A stretch of DNA of 42,376 nt from an uncultured Clostridia bacterium (GTDB lineage: Bacteria; Bacillota; Clostridia; Oscillospirales; Ruminococcaceae): assembly GCA_947363605.1 (NCBI GenBank), contig CANAQK010000012.1, positions 1-42,376 of the forward strand. Direction: 5' to 3'. Every line of letters starts with the position of its first letter. Position 1 is the stretch's first letter. The notes beneath the pieces are model-generated. The model made no database searches. It had not been told where the DNA came from and saw only the letters and a program-made list of their open reading frames with translations. Positions 4,161-36,052 of the stretch are shown here, in pieces. A program made the position numbers and the translations under genes.

Positions 4161-4197
4161 AGAACCCCACCGGCTGAAAAACCGGTGGGGTTCTTTA
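4161..4197 (+). terminator. Intrinsic terminator after nadA
   Basis: GAACCCCACCGG-ctgaaaaa-CCGGTGGGGTTC followed by TTTAT. The T tract merges into the TATAGTC end of repeat R1-b. Confidence 0.85.
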
Positions 4198-4370
4198 TAG
4201 TCGGCACACCCTCAAATCGGTGCCCGCTTTGAGGGTCAGGCTTTGCCTGTCCGCACATAAAATGCGCTGTGCGCCGTCTATGAAGCACTACCGCATGGCC
4301 GCTTCGCTGGCGGCATTATGCCGCAGTGTTAAAAAGAAGCCAATGCTTCTTTTCAAGCGCGTTGACTATA
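4196..4370 (+). repeat. R1 MITE-like repeat, copy b
   Basis: Full-length copy of 175 bp: TATAGTCGGCAC, a hairpin around CCCTCAAATCGG, CAGGCTTTGCCTG, the GCGCTGTGCGC block, a GCGGCATTATGCCGC hairpin, AAGAAGC / GCTTCTT, then GTTGACTATA. The ends are inverted repeats (TATAGTC / GACTATA). Confidence 0.85.
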
Positions 4371-4418
4371 GATCCTGTCAAAAATGGTAAAATTTCTGCC
4401 AAAATCGCCTTTTCCATC

Positions 4419-8047: not shown

Positions 8048-8132
8048 AAAAACACTTCCTCTGCAAAAGTTACAGCCAGCAAAAGCTTGCTTCGCTGGCT
8101 GTACAAAGAAAGTATTCCCGAAAGACCACCGG

Positions 8133-8231
8133 TTATACTAATTCTCGATAAAACGATGCGGTGGTTTTATTGTGCCGCATATCACGCCGCAATAAAAAGA
8201 TTAACATCTTTTTATCCAGAAACAGTTTATA
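8133..8231 (+). repeat. R2 repeat, copy 1 (short form)
   Basis: TATACTAATTCTCGATAAAA, GTGCCGCATATCACGCCGC, the hairpin AAAAAGATTAACATCTTTTT, then ATCCAGAAACAGTTTATA. Same ends as copies 2-4 but the middle is deleted. Its right end supplies the TAA stop of the MBL-fold gene. Confidence 0.8.
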
Positions 8232-9066: not shown

Positions 9067-9087
9067 GATTAAAATCCCTTTCTTTTT

Positions 9088-9249
9088 TATACTGATTCTC
9101 AATAAAACGATGCAGTCGCTTTATTGAGAATCAGAATGCGGTCCGGCGGCACAGCCGCCAGGAATGTTGCCAATACTTTTCTTGGTGCGCCGGAGGCATG
9201 GCGGCGTGATAAAAAGATTTCAATCTTTTTATCGAGAAACTGTACTATC
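9088..9249 (+). repeat. R2 repeat, copy 2 (full form)
   Basis: TATACTGATTCTCAATAAAA pairing with TTTTATTGAGAATCAG-like sequence, GGCGGCACAGCCGCC hairpin, AATACTTTTCTTGGTGCGCC, GGCGGCGTGAT, AAAAAGATTTCAATCTTTTT hairpin, ATCGAGAAACTGTACTATC. About 160 bp, filling the gap between the MBL-fold and SGNH genes. Confidence 0.8.
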
Positions 9250-10574: not shown

Positions 10575-11279
10575 TCATCCTTCATAAGGAACAATCGTAA
10601 TGCTTTCAATCAGGATATCGGTCTTCGGCATATCGCTTTCGTCCGTTTCCTGTGCCATGATCTTCTCTACCACTTCAATACCTTCAAATACCTGGCCGAA
10701 CACGGTATAACCCCCATCCAGATGGGGAGCGCCGCCGACCCGCTCATAGGTTTCCTTAACAGACGCACTGTAATCATAGGGTTCTTTCCCCTGGAATTTG
10801 GCCAGCTGCTCCATATAATCCCAGTATTCCGTTTCGATTGGGGAGGTATGGACAATATAGAACTGGCTGCCGATGGAATTGGGCTGTGAGCTTTGCGCGC
10901 AGCCTAACGCGCCGGTAAAGTGGGAAAGGTTCTTGTCATGCTCCACACCGAAGCCCTCGCCCCAGATGCTTTCCCCGCCCATGCCGGTACCGGTTGGGTC
11001 GCCGGTCTGCGCCATAAATTCCGCAATCACCCGATGGAATTTCAGCCCATCGTAGTAGCCGTTTTTCGCGTGGGTCGTGAAATTTTCCACCGCCTTAGGG
11101 GCGGATTTCGGGAACAGGCGGATTTTCATCTCGCCATAATCCTTCACCTTGAGGACAGCGATTTCCTCCCCTTTTTTCGGAAGGTCCAGCTGATTAGTAT
11201 TCCCGCTGCATCCGGTCAATAAGCCCACTGTCATCATCAGCGACAGCCCTGCCGCCGCAATCTTATGAAACAATCCCAC
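10575..11279 (-). CDS. Peptidylprolyl isomerase, cyclophilin lipoprotein (catalytic)
   Basis: Secreted lipid-anchored cyclophilin that would catalyse proline cis-trans isomerisation of proteins folding at the cell surface. 234 aa: signal peptide with lipobox LLTGC (Cys about residue 24), then a cyclophilin domain (about 45-230). The catalytic core is intact: KFHRVIAEFMAQTGDPTGTG, followed by FTGALGCAQS and GYTVFGQVFEG. GTG start with GAGG seven bases upstream. It follows its paralogue by 20 bases on the same strand, so the two form an operon. The extra stretch between FYIVHTS and GYTVFGQ is longer than in minimal cyclophilins. Confidence 0.93.
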   Translation of the reverse strand: MGLFHKIAAAGLSLMMTVGLLTGCSGNTNQLDLPKKGEEIAVLKVKDYGEMKIRLFPKSAPKAVENFTTHAKNGYYDGLKFHRVIAEFMAQTGDPTGTGMGGESIWGEGFGVEHDKNLSHFTGALGCAQSSQPNSIGSQFYIVHTSPIETEYWDYMEQLAKFQGKEPYDYSASVKETYERVGGAPHLDGGYTVFGQVFEGIEVVEKIMAQETDESDMPKTDILIESITIVPYEG

Positions 11280-11299: not shown

Positions 11300-12049
11300 T
11301 TATTCCGTATCCGAAGAAGCTGAACCAGCCTCCTCCGCATGGTATTCCGTCAGTTCGATGCTCAGCAGCCGCCCGTCCAGAACCTGGCCGTTATCTGCCG
11401 AAATCTCCGCTTTTGCCAGTTTGTCTACAATCTCCATCCCATCGATCACCTGGCCGAACACGGTATAGCTTCCGGTATACTGCGGCAGGCCGCCATGCTC
11501 TTTATAGGCATCAATCACTTTCAGCGGATACTGGTATTTTTCCATTTCTGTCACCATTTCCGTGGTCGCCGAAAGTGTCCCGACAAAAAAGAACCGGCTG
11601 TCTGACACCATCTCCTGGGAGAACTGGTTTTTTTCCACGCCCAGTGCCGATACCGCCCCGCTGAAATGCCAGAGGTTCGGCGTAACCTCGCTGGCGAGCG
11701 GCTTCTCGTCCTCTGTCAGCAGTTCTCCCTGCGCGCCAAACTCGTCGGACGCACCAGTCACCACGGTACGGCTCCCGATCTGTGCAAAGAGCGGAAGATC
11801 CGTATAAAAACCGGATTCCACCAGCTTTTTAAAATGGGCGACCGTTTGAGGGGCCTCCTTCGGATACAATACCATTGTAATATCCCCCAGCGTCGTATGC
11901 ACTACCGCCAGATCCGCGCCTTCTTCCACTTCTTCAAATTGACGAAAAACAATGGCGCTTTCTTCAATCCCCGATGCTCCGGACGGCATACACCCACTGA
12001 AAAGCAGCGCACAGCTCAGCGCGGCCGCCAACATTATTTTGCCTTTCAA
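11300..12049 (-). CDS. Cyclophilin-like lipoprotein with degenerate active site
   Basis: First gene of the cyclophilin pair. 249 aa with signal peptide and lipobox LFSGC (Cys about 20). The fold is recognisable from VVHTTLGDITMVLYPKEAP, TVAHFKKLVESG, FSGAVSALG, FFFVGTL and SYTVFGQVIDG. The catalytic FHRVI segment is replaced by LFAQI and the FMxQxGD segment by SRTVVTGAS, so the catalytic Arg is missing. This suggests a binding or chaperone-like rather than catalytic role (inference). TTG start with AAAGGGGAG six bases upstream. Confidence 0.85.
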   Translation of the reverse strand: MKGKIMLAAALSCALLFSGCMPSGASGIEESAIVFRQFEEVEEGADLAVVHTTLGDITMVLYPKEAPQTVAHFKKLVESGFYTDLPLFAQIGSRTVVTGASDEFGAQGELLTEDEKPLASEVTPNLWHFSGAVSALGVEKNQFSQEMVSDSRFFFVGTLSATTEMVTEMEKYQYPLKVIDAYKEHGGLPQYTGSYTVFGQVIDGMEIVDKLAKAEISADNGQVLDGRLLSIELTEYHAEEAGSASSDTE

Positions 12050-12212: not shown

Positions 12213-13601
12213 TCAAGCCTTCGCAATCCGGGTCCCCTGACGGGTTTCCTCGATCAGGTAGCCCTTTCCGGCGATTTCGTCCCGGATCCGGTCGGCTTCC
12301 GCCCAATTCTTCGCTTTGCGCGCCTCCGCACGGGCAGCCGCCAGCGCCTGGATCTCCGGCGGGATCTCCTCTTCTTTTTTCACGTACAGCAGCCCCAGCA
12401 CACCGGTCAGCTCGTTCAGCAAAGCCAGCGCCGCTTCCAACCAGCCCCGGTTCCCGTTCTGTGCCGCTGCGGTATTCCCTTCCCGCGCCAATTCAAAAAT
12501 AAACGAAACTGCGTCCGCCGTATTGAGGTCGTCCTCCATTGCTTCCAGGAACCCGGCCTTGAAGTGATCCAGCCGGGCCTGCTGCTCCGGCGTAATCTCC
12601 CCATCCTTAGCCTGGGAGAGGGCGCGGGTCAGGTTATCCCGGCAGTTATACAGCCGCGCCAGGGATGCCGCACAGGATTCCACAATCTCCACGGTATAAT
12701 TGATCGGGCTGCGGTAGTGCGCCTGAAGCATGAGATAGCGAAGCGGCTCATATCCGTATTTTTCAGCGACTTCCCGGGTAGTAAAGAAGTTATTCAGGGA
12801 TTTGGACATCTTCTTATTATCAATATTGATGTACCCGTTGTGCATCCAGTAGTGAGCAAAGGGAACACCGTTTGCACACTCGCTCTGGGCAATCTCGTTT
12901 TCATGATGCGGGAAAACCAGATCCTGCCCGCCGCAGTGGATGTCGATGGTTTCCCCCAGGAACCGGCGCGCCATCGCCGAGCATTCGATATGCCAGCCCG
13001 GCCGGCCCTTTCCCCAAGGGGAGTCCCAGCTGGGCTCGCCCGGCTTGGAAGCCTTCCAGAGGGCAAAATCCATCGGATTTTCCTTCACTGAATTCACCTC
13101 GATCCGGGCGCCGGCCTCCAGATCCTCCAGCGGCATATGGGACAGCTTTCCATATTCCTCGAACCGGAGCGTCCGGAAGTAGACGTCCCCCTCCGCTTCA
13201 TAAGCGAACCCTTTTTCCACCAGGGTGCGGACAAAATCAATGATCCCCTCCATATTCTCGGTCACCTTGGGATGAACGGTTGCTTCCCGGACGTTCAGCC
13301 CCTCCGCATCCTTGCGGTACTCCGCGATATACCGTTCCGAAACTACGCTGGAAGGAACCCCTTCCTCATTGGCTTTCCGGATAATCTTATCGTCTACATC
13401 CGTGAAATTCTGCACAAATTCCACCTCGTACCCCCGATATTCCAGATAGCGCCGCAGTACGTCAAAGACACAGAGCGGCCGGGCATTCCCGATATGGATT
13501 CGGTTATAGACGGTTGGGCCGCAGGCATAAATCCGGACCCGGCCCGGTTCGATCGGGACGAGTTCTTCTTTCCGGCGGGTAAGCGTATTATAAATTTTCA
13601 T
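12213..13601 (-). CDS. cysS: Cysteinyl-tRNA synthetase
   Basis: Class I synthetase charging tRNA-Cys in the cytoplasm. 462 aa, the usual size. HIGH motif as RIHIGNARP (about residue 37), KMSKS as KMSKSLNNF (about 268), zinc-site residues ACGPTV (Cys27), IECSAM, CGGQDLVFPHHENE, and a C-terminal DALR-like helical region with AxxKNWAxAD. ATG with GGAAG six bases upstream. Its start overlaps the end of cysE by 14 bases, so cysE-cysS is one transcription unit controlled by the leader at 14257-14509. Synthesis of cysteine and its loading onto tRNA are thus co-regulated, as in the Bacillus cysES operon. Confidence 0.97.
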   Translation of the reverse strand: MKIYNTLTRRKEELVPIEPGRVRIYACGPTVYNRIHIGNARPLCVFDVLRRYLEYRGYEVEFVQNFTDVDDKIIRKANEEGVPSSVVSERYIAEYRKDAEGLNVREATVHPKVTENMEGIIDFVRTLVEKGFAYEAEGDVYFRTLRFEEYGKLSHMPLEDLEAGARIEVNSVKENPMDFALWKASKPGEPSWDSPWGKGRPGWHIECSAMARRFLGETIDIHCGGQDLVFPHHENEIAQSECANGVPFAHYWMHNGYINIDNKKMSKSLNNFFTTREVAEKYGYEPLRYLMLQAHYRSPINYTVEIVESCAASLARLYNCRDNLTRALSQAKDGEITPEQQARLDHFKAGFLEAMEDDLNTADAVSFIFELAREGNTAAAQNGNRGWLEAALALLNELTGVLGLLYVKKEEEIPPEIQALAAARAEARKAKNWAEADRIRDEIAGKGYLIEETRQGTRIAKA

Positions 13602-14256
13602 GTTGTTCTTCCTTTCCTTCCTTCGGCTCGAGAGCAGCCAGACGGTCGCTCAGCAGCCGGATTTCATGCCGCATCCGACAGATTTCCAGCGAAAGCGGGT
13701 CTTTCACATGGACCTGGTCCATTTCCTGGCACAGCTTCTGCCCATCCCGGCGGACAATCCGCGCCGGAACCCCAACGGCGGTGGAATTCGGCGGGACTTC
13801 GTTCAGCACCACCGCCCCGGCCGCGATCCGGGAATTGTCCCCAACCTGGAAAGGCCCTAGGATCCGGGCACCGCTTCCCACCAGGACATTATTCCCCAAA
13901 GTAGGATGGCGCTTGCCATGATCCTTCCCGGTCCCGCCCAAGGTCACACCCTGATAAATCGTACAGTCATCCCCGATGACTGTCGTTTCCCCGATAACGA
14001 CCCCGCTTCCGTGGTCGATGAACAGCCCTTTCCCGATGACCGCGCCAGGATGAATTTCAATCCCGGTAAACCATCTTCCCCATTGGGAAAGCATCCGGGC
14101 CAAAAACCGGCAATGGTGCGTCCAGAACCAATGACTCGCCCGGTACCAGATCAGCGCGTGCAGCCCGGAATACAGGAAAAAAACCTCCCAACTGTTCCGC
14201 GCAGCCGGGTCCTTCTCCCGGATGGTACGAATATCATACCGCAGCTTTGAAAACAA
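13588..14256 (-). CDS. cysE: Serine O-acetyltransferase
   Basis: Acetyl-CoA-dependent acetylation of serine, the first step of cysteine synthesis. 222 aa. The N-terminal helical part (REKDPAARNSWEVFFLYSGL) is followed by left-handed beta-helix hexapeptide repeats (IHPGAVIGKGLFIDHGSG, VVIGETTVIGDDC, TLGGTGKDHGKRHPTLGNN) and a C-terminal extension. The catalytic Asp/His pair lies in HPTLG and IDHGSG regions as in the family. Start TTG 14256 was chosen because AAAGGGG lies eight bases upstream and alignment of the family N-terminus begins there; the frame is open further upstream through the leader, but that stretch is regulatory RNA. Confidence 0.95.
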   Translation of the reverse strand: MFSKLRYDIRTIREKDPAARNSWEVFFLYSGLHALIWYRASHWFWTHHCRFLARMLSQWGRWFTGIEIHPGAVIGKGLFIDHGSGVVIGETTVIGDDCTIYQGVTLGGTGKDHGKRHPTLGNNVLVGSGARILGPFQVGDNSRIAAGAVVLNEVPPNSTAVGVPARIVRRDGQKLCQEMDQVHVKDPLSLEICRMRHEIRLLSDRLAALEPKEGKEEQHENL

Positions 14257-14272
14257 TCTAAAATCCCCTTTC

Positions 14273-14321
14273 AAAAAAGCCGCCCCGTAAAAACCCGCTG
14301 TGCGGATTTTACGAAGACGGC
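14273..14321 (-). terminator. Leader terminator in front of cysE
   Basis: GCCGTCT-t-CGTAAAA-TCCGC-aca-GCGGG-t-TTTTACG-GGGCGGC followed by TTTTTT (14273-14278). This long stem with a U6 tail ends one base before the GAAAGGGG ribosome site of cysE, the position expected for a conditional terminator. Confidence 0.85.
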
Positions 14322-14411
14322 CGGCTCCCGCGGGTAAATCGATCCGCGTTTCTATCTCTATGTATATGTTTGATTCTGCCACGAAGTGAAATGAAAAAGA
14401 AAAACCGGCCA

Positions 14412-14453
14412 TCAGAACGGAAGTGTACATGACAAACAGACCGCCTCAGCCAT
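14412..14453 (-). CDS. Putative cysE-cysS leader peptide with two Cys codons
   Basis: Thirteen codons, MAEAVCLSCTLPF, then TGA. Cys codons are at positions 6 and 9. The ribosome site is weak (AGG three bases upstream within TATAGGTTG), which is the main doubt. The stop codon overlaps the GATGGCCGG element. If a ribosome reaches the stop it would cover that element; if it stalls at the first Cys codon the element stays free to form the antiterminator. Confidence 0.45.
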   Translation of the reverse strand: MAEAVCLSCTLPF

Positions 14454-14480
14454 CAACCTATACGAAGCACAACTGCGCTT

Positions 14481-14509
14481 AGTATAGCATAGGTTCCCCC
14501 AATTGACAA
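14481..14509 (-). promoter_or_regulatory. sigma-A promoter of cysE-cysS
   Basis: Minus strand TTGTCA (14504-14509), 17-base spacer, TATACT (14481-14486). Start point near 14474. It lies just after the pgsA stop, so cysE-cysS is a separate unit from the rimO-pgsA genes. Confidence 0.8.
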
Positions 14510-14533
14510 GAAAAATTTTCCGCACATGGCGGA

Positions 14534-15103
14534 TTACCGGGTCTCGGAAACGGTATCCCAGTTTTTCCAAATATAGTCCACACCGGAAATAATGGTAATC
14601 ACCGCCGAAATCCACATCAGCGTATGTGAAACCGCCCCGATTTCCAGCCAGGCCGGCAACGGAACAAACTGATCCACCGTGCAGAGCATCAGGATCGAAA
14701 TGACCGAAAGCATCTGGATAATAGTTTTGAACTTGCCGATCCAGCTGGCTGCAATCACCCTCCCATTCGAGGATACGGCAACCAGCCGGATAGATGTGAC
14801 CATAAATTCCCGTGCGATAATAATGACCACCGCTACCGAACTGGCATATCCCAATTCAATAAAACAGATCATCGCCGAAAGCACCAGGATTTTATCCGCC
14901 AATGGGTCCAGGAACTTCCCAAAGGTAGTGACCTGGTTGTTTTTACGGGCCAGATGCCCATCCAGCATATCCGTAAACGAAGCTGCTGCAAATACCAGCA
15001 GCGCAAATAAAAACCGGTGCGGGATCTGGTTGATCATCAGCAAAGCCAGAAAAAACGGCACCAGGATCATCCGCAAAACCGTCAGCTTATTCGGCGTGTT
15101 CAT
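14534..15103 (-). CDS. pgsA: CDP-diacylglycerol-glycerol-3-phosphate 3-phosphatidyltransferase
   Basis: Integral membrane enzyme making phosphatidylglycerol phosphate, the committed step to phosphatidylglycerol. 189 aa with several membrane helices. The CDP-alcohol phosphotransferase signature D-G-x2-A-R-x8-G-x3-D-x3-D is complete: DGHLARKNNQVTTFGKFLD followed by PLAD. Starts 24 bases after the rimO stop on the same strand, so probably co-transcribed with rimO. Confidence 0.95.
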   Translation of the reverse strand: MNTPNKLTVLRMILVPFFLALLMINQIPHRFLFALLVFAAASFTDMLDGHLARKNNQVTTFGKFLDPLADKILVLSAMICFIELGYASSVAVVIIIAREFMVTSIRLVAVSSNGRVIAASWIGKFKTIIQMLSVISILMLCTVDQFVPLPAWLEIGAVSHTLMWISAVITIISGVDYIWKNWDTVSETR

Positions 15104-16456: not shown

Positions 16457-16477
16457 TCCTGTTCCTCCTTCTATCCG

Positions 16478-16528
16478 ATACTAATTCTGAATAAAACGAT
16501 GCAGCCATTTTATCAAGAAATCGTATTA
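16478..16528 (+). repeat. R2 repeat, copy 3 (minimal 51-bp form)
   Basis: GATACTAATTCTGAATAAAA, CGATGCAGCCATTTTAT, CAAGAAATCGTATTA: the two ends of the R2 family with the middle missing. It begins immediately after the recX stop codon (16529-16531, minus strand). Confidence 0.75.
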
Positions 16529-22607: not shown

Positions 22608-22790
22608 TATAGTCGGCACACCCTCAAATCGGCACCCGATTTGAGGGTCAGGCTTTGCCTGTCCGCGCATAAAATGCGCTGCGCGCCGTCTATGAAGCCC
22701 TGCCGCACGGCCGATTCGCTGCCCACTGCGGCATGATATGCCGCAGTGTTGAAAAGAAGCCAATGCTTCTTTTCAAGTGCGTTGATTATA
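22608..22790 (+). repeat. R1 MITE-like repeat, copy c
   Basis: 183 bp, full form: TATAGTCGGCAC, CCCTCAAATCGG / CCGATTTGAGGG hairpin, CAGGCTTTGCCTG, GCGCTGCGCGC, ACTGCGGCATGATATGCCGCAGT hairpin, GAAAAGAAGC / GCTTCTTTTC hairpin, GTTGATTATA. It abuts R2 copy 4, and together they fill the 362-bp gap between lipoprotein and response regulator genes. Confidence 0.85.
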
Positions 22791-22959
22791 ATATGGTTTC
22801 TTGACAAAAAGATGTTAATCTTTTTATCGCGGCGTGATACGCCGCCTTGCCTACGGCGCACCAAGAAAAGTATTGAACAGCATTCTTGGCGGCTGCGCCG
22901 CCGGGCCGCATCCTGCGGCCAAATAAAACGACTGTATCATTTTATCGGGAATTAGTATA
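22787..22959 (-). repeat. R2 repeat, copy 4 (full form, inverted)
   Basis: Read on the minus strand it matches copy 2: TATACTAATTCCCGATAAAA, the GGCCGCAGGATGCGGCC and GGCGGC hairpins, AATACTTTTCTTGGTGCGCC, GGCGGCGTATCACGCCGC, the AAAAAGATTAACATCTTTTT hairpin and an AAGAAACCATATTATA end. Its edge encodes the last five residues and the stop of the lipoprotein. Confidence 0.8.
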
Positions 22960-24267
22960 ACGCTGGAAATTCTCCGCTACCTGCTGTTCTGAAATGCCCA
23001 GCTCCGAGCTGGTTTCATAAATCTGATAGGCATATAAAATCTGCCCGTTATCCCAAAGCAGGCGATACCCTTTTTTCTCCGCTTCCCGCTCATAGATTCC
23101 CCGCCGGTAAACCCGGATCGACAACAGCTTTTTTTCCTGTGACGGCTGATCCGGCGTGTATTCATAAAAAATCAGTTCGCTGTCGTTTGTACTGAATTCG
23201 GCCGTTACGCGGCCCCGCCACCTCTCGGGCAGGATGAACAGATATCCCAGCGAATAAGCGGCGTAGGTCGTTTTGGTCCGGGACAAAGCCCCGCCCAAAT
23301 ACAGATACCATTCGGTAAAGGGTTCCGTACTGTTTTTCCCCGGATCCCGGACTGGGATTTCCACAACCCCATCATTGTCCAGATCCACTGCAGGGGAGCC
23401 GGTATCCCGCATGGTCCGCCGTACCAGGTTATCCTCTCCCTGCTCCGGTTCATACATCAGGTTCTCCAGACGGTCCGGCCCGTTTATCACCAGAATTTCT
23501 GTCGTCAGGGTGCTCCCTCCCCGGATGCCGTCCAAATAAAGGGCGCTCCGGCCGTCCAGCAGCTTCCCGCGGAGAATATTGCTGTAACGGGTCACCTCCG
23601 GATCCAGTGCTGTACTGCTCAGCAGGCCCGAACACCCAAAGCTGGTGATCCGCCTGAGCTCCGCCGTCACGGTACGCATCTGTTCCTCGCCATCTTCCGC
23701 GGAGATCGTAACCAGCTCGGTCTGCTTGTCCCCATCCAAATCCATAACCTCGTAATTGCTGCAGGTGGTCTGGAACTTTTTCTCCAACCGGCCGTCTTCA
23801 TAGGAATAAATCAGGATAATCTTATTCGGGCTCCCTAGTTGGTTAAACCCAATGACCAGATATTTCCGGCGATCCACCGCAATCAAAGAAACCTTTTCCA
23901 CCTCACTGGCCGGAACTACCGCATCATAGGTCGAAATCCAGCGGCCATCCTTCTGATCCAGGATATTGATCCGCACCGAAGTCCCGGGCGTCGAGGAAGC
24001 CAGCTCATAAAACACCAGCGCTTCCTGGGAAGGCTCCTCGTCCATATCGTTGATGAGGAACGCCGAAATAAAATCCCCTTTCCGGGGATATTTCAGCCGG
24101 ATATTTTTCCCGACGCTGGCCTGAAGTGCCGTATAGATCTGGCTTTGCTGGTCGGAGAGGGTGGGCGGCTTCAGCATGGAATCAATCCCGGTACTGGTAT
24201 AGGAACAGCCGGACAGCAAAAACAGCAGCAAAAACAGAGCCGCCGCCAGGCGCATGGCTTTTTTCAT
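22942..24267 (-). CDS. Lipoprotein of unknown function upstream of a two-component system
   Basis: 441 aa with signal peptide and lipobox LLSGC (Cys about 21), then a long soluble region with aspartate-rich beta-propeller-like pieces (VMDLDGDKQTEL, AVDLDNDGVVEIPV) reminiscent of FG-GAP/VCBS calcium-binding blades. I cannot name a family or function. ATG 24267 with GGAGGGG seven bases upstream. It lies upstream of the response regulator and kinase on the same strand, so it may be a surface sensor partner or target. The last residues (YTNSR) come from R2 copy 4. Confidence 0.8.
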   Translation of the reverse strand: MKKAMRLAAALFLLLFLLSGCSYTSTGIDSMLKPPTLSDQQSQIYTALQASVGKNIRLKYPRKGDFISAFLINDMDEEPSQEALVFYELASSTPGTSVRINILDQKDGRWISTYDAVVPASEVEKVSLIAVDRRKYLVIGFNQLGSPNKIILIYSYEDGRLEKKFQTTCSNYEVMDLDGDKQTELVTISAEDGEEQMRTVTAELRRITSFGCSGLLSSTALDPEVTRYSNILRGKLLDGRSALYLDGIRGGSTLTTEILVINGPDRLENLMYEPEQGEDNLVRRTMRDTGSPAVDLDNDGVVEIPVRDPGKNSTEPFTEWYLYLGGALSRTKTTYAAYSLGYLFILPERWRGRVTAEFSTNDSELIFYEYTPDQPSQEKKLLSIRVYRRGIYEREAEKKGYRLLWDNGQILYAYQIYETSSELGISEQQVAENFQRYTNSR

Positions 24268-24440: not shown

Positions 24441-24585
24441 TATAGTCGGCACACCCTCCAATCGATACCCGATTGGAGGGTCAGGCTTTGCCTGTTCGCA
24501 CATAAAATGCGCTGTGCGCCGTCTATGAAGCCCTGCCGCAGTGTTGAAAAGAAGCCAATGCTTCTTTTCAAGTGCGTTGACTATA
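24441..24585 (+). repeat. R1 MITE-like repeat, copy d (145-bp form)
   Basis: TATAGTCGGCAC, CCCTCCAATCG / CGATTGGAGGG hairpin, CAGGCTTTGCCTG, GCGCTGTGCGC, then directly GAAAAGAAGC / GCTTCTTTTC and GTTGACTATA. The ATGCCGCAGT hairpin is deleted. Its hairpins may end transcription of the ABC-F gene, which has no other visible terminator. Confidence 0.85.
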
Positions 24586-24671
24586 AAAATACTTGGAATA
24601 CGGCAAGGATTCCTGCGTTTTTGCCTTGCATTCTCCTGTTGCCTGCGAAAAATTCGGTCATTTCTCTATTT

Positions 24672-35862: not shown

Positions 35863-36040
35863 TATAGTCGGCACGCTTGAAAACCGGCGCCCGATTTTCA
35901 AGTCAGGCTTTGCCTGGCATAAAATGCGCTGCGCGCCGTCTATGAAGCCCTGCCGCATGGCCGCTTCGCTTCCCACTGCGGCATATCATGCCGCAGTGTT
36001 GAAAAGAAGCATTGGCTTCTTTTCAAGTGCGTTGACTATA
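35863..36040 (+). repeat. R1 MITE-like repeat, copy e
   Basis: 178 bp: TATAGTCGGCAC, CTTGAAAACCGG / CCGATTTTCAAG hairpin, CAGGCTTTGCCTG, GCGCTGCGCGC, ACTGCGGCATATCATGCCGCAGT hairpin, GAAAAGAAGC / GCTTCTTTTC hairpin, GTTGACTATA. With R3-c it fills the 384-bp gap between pyrF and carA, so it is probably transcribed within the operon. Confidence 0.85.
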
Positions 36041-36052
36041 ATATCTTCCTGG

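Follow-up and report, generated by a model that had tools for sequence, protein, structure and literature searches.

The leader of cysE and cysS in this uncultured Clostridia bacterium holds a decayed copy of a dispersed repeat and an intrinsic terminator, at a place where six other genomes of the genus carry a T-box. In our reading the leader is probably a promoter followed by an old, decayed copy of a promoter-associated repeat and a strong terminator, the T-box being gone, with read-through set by the balance between terminator and antiterminator. The supposed cysteine-sensing mini-gene of this leader appears, from its sequence, to be largely inherited repeat. These features were located in a window of 42,376 nucleotides (nt), the whole stretch of DNA that was analysed, and their coordinates are collected in Table 1.

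Table 1 Features of the cysE–cysS locus, with positions in the window
Feature	Position	Strand	Remarks
cysS, cysteine-tRNA ligase	12213..13601	-	TIGR00435, 569.8 bits
cysE, serine O-acetyltransferase	13591..14256	-	TTG start at 14256; TIGR01172, 242.8 bits, and NF041874, 251.3 bits, both above cut-offs
Predicted intrinsic terminator, locus-specific	14273..14322	-	Hairpin at about 14322-14278 plus U6 tail
CCGGCCGTC	14316..14324	-	Forms the left foot of the terminator and the 3′ partner in the alternative pairing
Decayed copy of the dispersed ~117-nt repeat	14373..14489	-	68.4% identical to consensus
GATGGCCGG	14405..14413	-	Second GATGGCC motif of the repeat and 5′ strand of the alternative pairing; overlaps the frame stop
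13-codon frame MAEAVCLSCTLPF plus stop	14412..14453	-	Inside the repeat copy
−10 box TATACT	14481..14486	-	Coincides with the left end of the repeat copy
−35 box TTGTCA	14504..14509	-	Outside the repeat copy
pgsA	14534-15103		Gene of the locus

The family matches uphold the identities that the first-pass annotation had given to cysE and cysS. The two genes lie behind a promoter of their own, with TTGTCA and TATACT separated by a 17-nt spacer, 10 of 12 consensus matches and a TG preceding the −10 box; it lies on the minus strand (14509–14504 and 14486–14481), where it had been placed before. AAGGGG (14270–14265, minus strand) stands between the U6 tail of the terminator and the TTG start of cysE. 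Upstream, the cysE frame stays open across the terminator as far as an ATG at 14430 (13588–14430, minus strand; 280 amino acids); this longer frame is probably a product of chance, as relatives' genes begin, by eye, near MF at the place of 14256. Elsewhere in the window, two adjacent lipoprotein-like genes (10575–11279 and 11300–12049, minus strand) have a repeated stretch in common and look like cyclophilin-type isomerases.

A T-box precedes cysE in each of the six other genomes of the genus. Four of these T-boxes score above the Rfam cut-off and two (L019 and L020) reach 62.9 and 63.5 bits, below the 93-bit cut-off, with E about 1e-11; by eye, the specifier codon is UGC (Cys) in all six. The scan that returned those four found no T-box at the cysE locus of the sister genome G006 (L014). 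In the window, Rfam gave no T-box at the gathering threshold, and in 14100–14620 no family matched up to E 10. A sequence profile built from 41 T-box leaders, using their 3′ halves, likewise had no match in the window leader at E ≤ 10. Those 41 leaders are the ones with the core motif within 500 nt upstream among 78 loci of relatives, some of which end before 500 nt; two records are counted twice (L016/L093 and L041/L105), and in three the motif lies more than 340 nt away. A T-box or other Rfam RNA in the leader is rejected by the Rfam scans and the 3′-half profile, and the earlier statement that the leader has no T-box holds. Because six other genomes of the genus carry one before cysE, the T-box would have been lost in the window species and in G006. 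A T-box surviving in degenerate or divergent form within the leader's 3′ half would occupy the same place as the relatives' T-box leaders, whose ends are resembled by eye by CCGCGGGA and CCGTCTTCGT, but neither Rfam nor the 3′-half profile gave a match up to E 10, and we hold this reading to be highly improbable. The genome keeps T-boxes elsewhere, with 10 matches, 5 of them above the cut-off. One T-box (L004, 1501–1755, minus strand) stands before an O-acetylhomoserine/serine sulfhydrylase gene and has, by eye, AUG at the specifier place.

A profile of 37 other copies of the repeat, the window's own being excluded, matched the window at 34.7 bits (E 3.7e-10), compared with 5.8 bits for the best of 1000 shuffles, and the window holds no other match to it at E ≤ 10. 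The profile-scored alignment spans 14488–14401; the extent from 14400 to 14373 comes from the multiple alignment. With 68.4% identity to the consensus, the window copy is the third lowest among 38 rows. It is nonetheless full-length: it starts at the TG that precedes the −10 box, reaches about 14373, and contains TGCTATACTAAGCGC and the left hairpin, the two GATGGCC motifs and, at its right end, GGCAGAAT.

A search of eight genus genomes with the leader returned the 99% identical leader of G006 and two weaker matches, also in G006, and the leader stands before cysE in two of the eight. One of the weaker G006 copies, used as a query at E ≤ 1, matched 42 pieces in G000, 39 in G002 and 25 in G006, some of them in tandem; short matches, and opposite-strand matches within the same palindromes, contribute to these counts. 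The other five genus genomes gave eight short pieces in total, none with E below 0.25. Within the family, 197 genomes sampled from a larger group were searched, with at most four candidates scored per genome; repeat matches at E ≤ 1e-6 occurred in 12, the window's own genome counted. The copies are numerous and lie at unrelated places, as in MITE-like elements, and the genes behind them are functionally mixed: RluA-type synthase, MgtC, CAAX protease, beta-lactamase-fold, YlbF, HAD, ABC, dCTP-deaminase-like and LacI proteins (9 of 10 proteins in the first set had a family), with WcaJ, signal peptidase and MerR-like proteins among the further genes.

The mixed families behind the copies lead us to reject the repeat as a sulfur-specific riboswitch. 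They also bear on a novel ligand- or protein-binding attenuator made from repeat-derived RNA, for which an alternative pairing and a terminator are at hand (see below) and which would stand at the T-box position of relatives. We consider such an attenuator quite improbable, since the repeat is not tied to sulfur genes, the leader precedes cysE in only two of eight genus genomes, and 14100–14620 has no Rfam match up to E 10.

The flanks of the repeats suggest that, within the genus, they sit on −10 boxes, a side finding that may matter more than the leader itself. Of 27 left ends, 18 have a TTG upstream of the left TATAAT at a distance of 17 nt (10 ends) or 18 nt (8 ends), and at any other offset from 5 to 109 a TTG stands in at most 3. 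These 27 were taken from 42 left ends as being non-tandem and having at least 120 nt of flank; the window's own copy is among them, as are at least three orthologous pairs (L063/L069, L056/L061 and L070/L081). Further copies in G006 and G002 have the TTG at this offset in 8 of 11 cases, against a mean of 0.43 for other offset pairs, with several of the 11 sites appearing orthologous to earlier ones (for example, L203, L206, L207 and L208). In other genera the count is 3 of 15, against a mean of 0.65 and a maximum of also 3 for other offset pairs. Matches below 25 bits and L195 were left out of these two additional tests. Because the −35 signal elsewhere is weak, being equalled by other offsets, we keep the −10-box claim to the genus. 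Nineteen distinct arrays are followed within 200 nt by a mechanically called frame, and in 17 of them, the window's included, that frame reads in the direction of the repeat.

Insertion at such sites is visible in a comparison of G000:C18, which carries a repeat, with G006:C57, which is empty: the flanks of the two sites can be aligned directly over the gap for about 49 nt on the left and 58 nt on the right, and the empty site shows a promoter, TTGAAA-17-TATCAT. The sequence ATGCTATMAT is found once in the empty G006:C57 and twice in the occupied G000:C18. Farther left of the G000:C18 repeat lies G000 sequence without a match in G006. At a second site G006:C69 is occupied and G000:C7 has no repeat but has other sequence beside the site, and the case is hence less clean. 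The family thus shows the insertion polymorphism, with empty sites, that is looked for in MITE-like elements. At both sites an ATGSTATAAT-like sequence, which may be a target-site duplication or may itself belong to the repeat, occurs once when the site is empty and twice when it is occupied.

The left hairpin of the repeat takes in the flanking −10 box. By eye, its arms change in concert from copy to copy and go on matching each other where that box varies (L043, L044, L050, L056, L062, L083 and others), as illustrated by the matching arms CATGGTATAATAAGTG/CACTTATTATACCATGG of L062. This covariation, seen by eye and carrying no statistic, would fit recognition of the target through base pairing.

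The first-pass annotation had read the leader as ribosome-mediated cysteine attenuation. In that reading, a stall at the Cys codons of a short frame frees GATGGCCGG and the antiterminator forms, whereas completion of the frame leads to termination. As a rival to our explanation, it would have the stall at Cys codon 6 or 9 and the repeat domesticated after T-box loss. The frame, MAEAVCLSCTLPF, is present as described, with its ATG at 14453, its TGA at 14414–14412 (minus strand), two Cys codons upstream of the stop, and GATGGCCGG, the antiterminator strand, overlapping that stop. Its start codon lies inside the first GATGGCC of the repeat and its stop overlaps the second. The ribosome site looks weak by eye, with an AGG three bases 5′ of the ATG, in agreement with the caution raised earlier. 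Of 1000 dinucleotide shuffles of the leader, 252 contained a frame of 8–40 codons with at least two Cys codons, and 40 contained one of at most 14 codons. Across the 37 other repeat copies used for the profile and the codon counts, which include tandem and orthologous ones, the codon matching Cys 6 encodes Cys in none and that matching Cys 9 in four. Both Cys codons are kept in G006 (translated by eye); this sole other genome found with the leader is about 99% identical, too close to reveal selection on the frame or on the pairing. We infer that the short frame is mostly a by-product of the repeat. The Cys codons could have been recruited later, and their mere presence is no evidence for recruitment.

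The terminator that had been claimed between promoter and cysE is present, with its U6 tail (TTTTTT at 14278–14273, minus strand) adjoining AAGGGG and the cysE start. Its hairpin is predicted within a fold of −26.5 kcal/mol; a simple terminator scan did not list it, and a looser scan did, at −24.3. A simple hairpin plus T5, sought in the 150 nt downstream of 52 repeat copies or arrays, was found in 3 of them, window included, the window's being the strongest. Because so few downstream regions have one, the terminator is not part of the repeat, and we reject it as a component of the family. As modelled, the terminator is strong, real-looking and locus-specific, and it still needs explaining.

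GATGGCCGG and the terminator foot CCGGCCGTC can form nine pairs, one of them G–U. With G–U counted, this pairing extends to 14 contiguous pairs, a length reached by 0 of 500 shuffles; with Watson–Crick pairs only, its longest run is 6, an ordinary value that 320 of 500 shuffles reach, and the significance accordingly depends on counting G–U. The duplex energy of the repeat-derived RNA with the terminator arm is −34.5 (shuffles: mean −23.2, s.d. 3.3), equalled by 2 of 1000. Since these tests were made after the pairing had been noticed, their statistics carry selection bias. Folding of the leader as a whole is ordinary (z = −1.04; 31 of 200 shuffles fold equally well). The lowest-energy predicted fold contains the alternative pairing, at −60.4 kcal/mol, and in it the antiterminator forms without any stalled ribosome; when 14405–14413 is kept single, the full terminator forms at −54.2, 6.2 kcal/mol away. 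On whether the two structures exclude each other the evidence points both ways: they have bases 14316–14324 in common and the pairing beats shuffles with G–U counted, but the upper terminator stem persists in the antiterminated fold, which may therefore not abolish termination.

These results bear on the cysteine reading. On its side are the position of the Cys codons, a pairing beyond chance, a terminator adjoining cysE, the retention of both codons in the sister and a precedent discussed below; its spacing is also self-consistent by the estimated ribosome footprint, which counts against our preferred explanation. Frame and motif, however, are repeat sequence whose Cys codons are not conserved in the family, two-Cys frames are common by chance (less so when short), the ribosome site looks weak, conserved Cys codons or covarying pairs turned up in no independent relative, and the lowest-energy fold holds the antiterminator with no ribosome at all. 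Attenuation by cysteine stalling is unsupported, and we judge it improbable. What survives of the annotated attenuator is the absence of a T-box, a promoter of its own, the terminator and a pairing beyond chance when G–U is counted; the frame and its Cys codons are not supported as an evolved sensor.

Returning to the preferred explanation, a decayed repeat between promoter and terminator, we picture the present leader as a promoter, the repeat lying on its −10 box, about 48 nt of other sequence and the intrinsic terminator. Transcripts from TTGTCA/TATACT would have to pass the terminator to express cysE and cysS. Repeat-derived RNA at 14413–14400 would pair with the left foot at 14316–14329 and favour read-through, making the leader default-on, with a thermodynamic leaning towards read-through in the predicted folds, and expression would be set by the terminator/antiterminator balance. 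Termination would be favoured by anything that covers 14405–14413, be it a ribosome that has reached the leader stop, as the first-pass annotation proposed, or another occupant. The non-random pairing and the strong terminator exceed what a passive leftover needs, which counts against this explanation. Some attenuation is still plausible, because the terminator is locus-specific and its left foot pairs with repeat-derived RNA beyond chance.

A more elaborate history, to which we give a small chance, is that a small mobile element inserts at the −10 boxes of promoters, perhaps guided by its own ATTATA arm pairing with the target TATAAT, with the −10 still working on the left side. An old copy would then have taken over the cysES leader after T-box loss, its RNA being domesticated as an antiterminator, possibly with a young Cys leader peptide.

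The window contains other repeats. Further dispersed families, which contain internal palindromes and by eye do not resemble the cysE repeat, lie at 4196–4371, 22608–22791, 24441–24586, 35863–36044 and 2666–2815. A hairpin-rich family with direct and inverted copies and TATACTRATTCT-like stretches is found at 8126–8217, 9080–9234, 16469–16519 and 22788–22961.

The locus is a warning that a decayed repeat can pass for a textbook attenuator. It would also be a case in which, inside a single genus, a cysteine operon has lost its RNA regulator, a T-box, and has repeat-derived leader sequence in its place. A repeat family on the −10 boxes of this gut bacterium would, moreover, let mobile DNA enter 5′ untranslated regions while sparing the promoter.

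Three known systems invite comparison. The cysE T-box leaders of the genus (RF00230) have the same place before cysE, a promoter and a terminator, but no T-box sequence or structure was detected in the window. The uORFC-8-2 motif, which precedes cysS in Rhodobacterales and is the precedent for cysteine attenuation, has tandem Cys codons and a terminal U run, and in the portion of the source available its Cys codons are called highly conserved among 145 unique examples (PMC8632094). The cysE leader resembles the motif described there in its short two-Cys frame and in the terminator that precedes a gene for Cys-tRNA ligase; it differs in that its Cys codons are part of a repeat copy whose family does not conserve them. 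Bacterial MITE-like repeats (Correia, BOX, RUP and SPRITE) are, like the cysE repeat, short, palindromic, multi-copy, mostly beside genes and sometimes tandem, with −10-like sequence. Promoters inside such elements have been described, and possible terminators or riboswitches in mRNAs suggested, in the part of the literature source at hand (PMC10969869). A literature search at the level of titles and abstract openings found, among the papers listed, no repeat whose left end lies on the −10 box of promoters. Unlike the MITE-like repeats, the genus repeat has a left end that coincides with the −10 of promoters whose −35 lies outside it.
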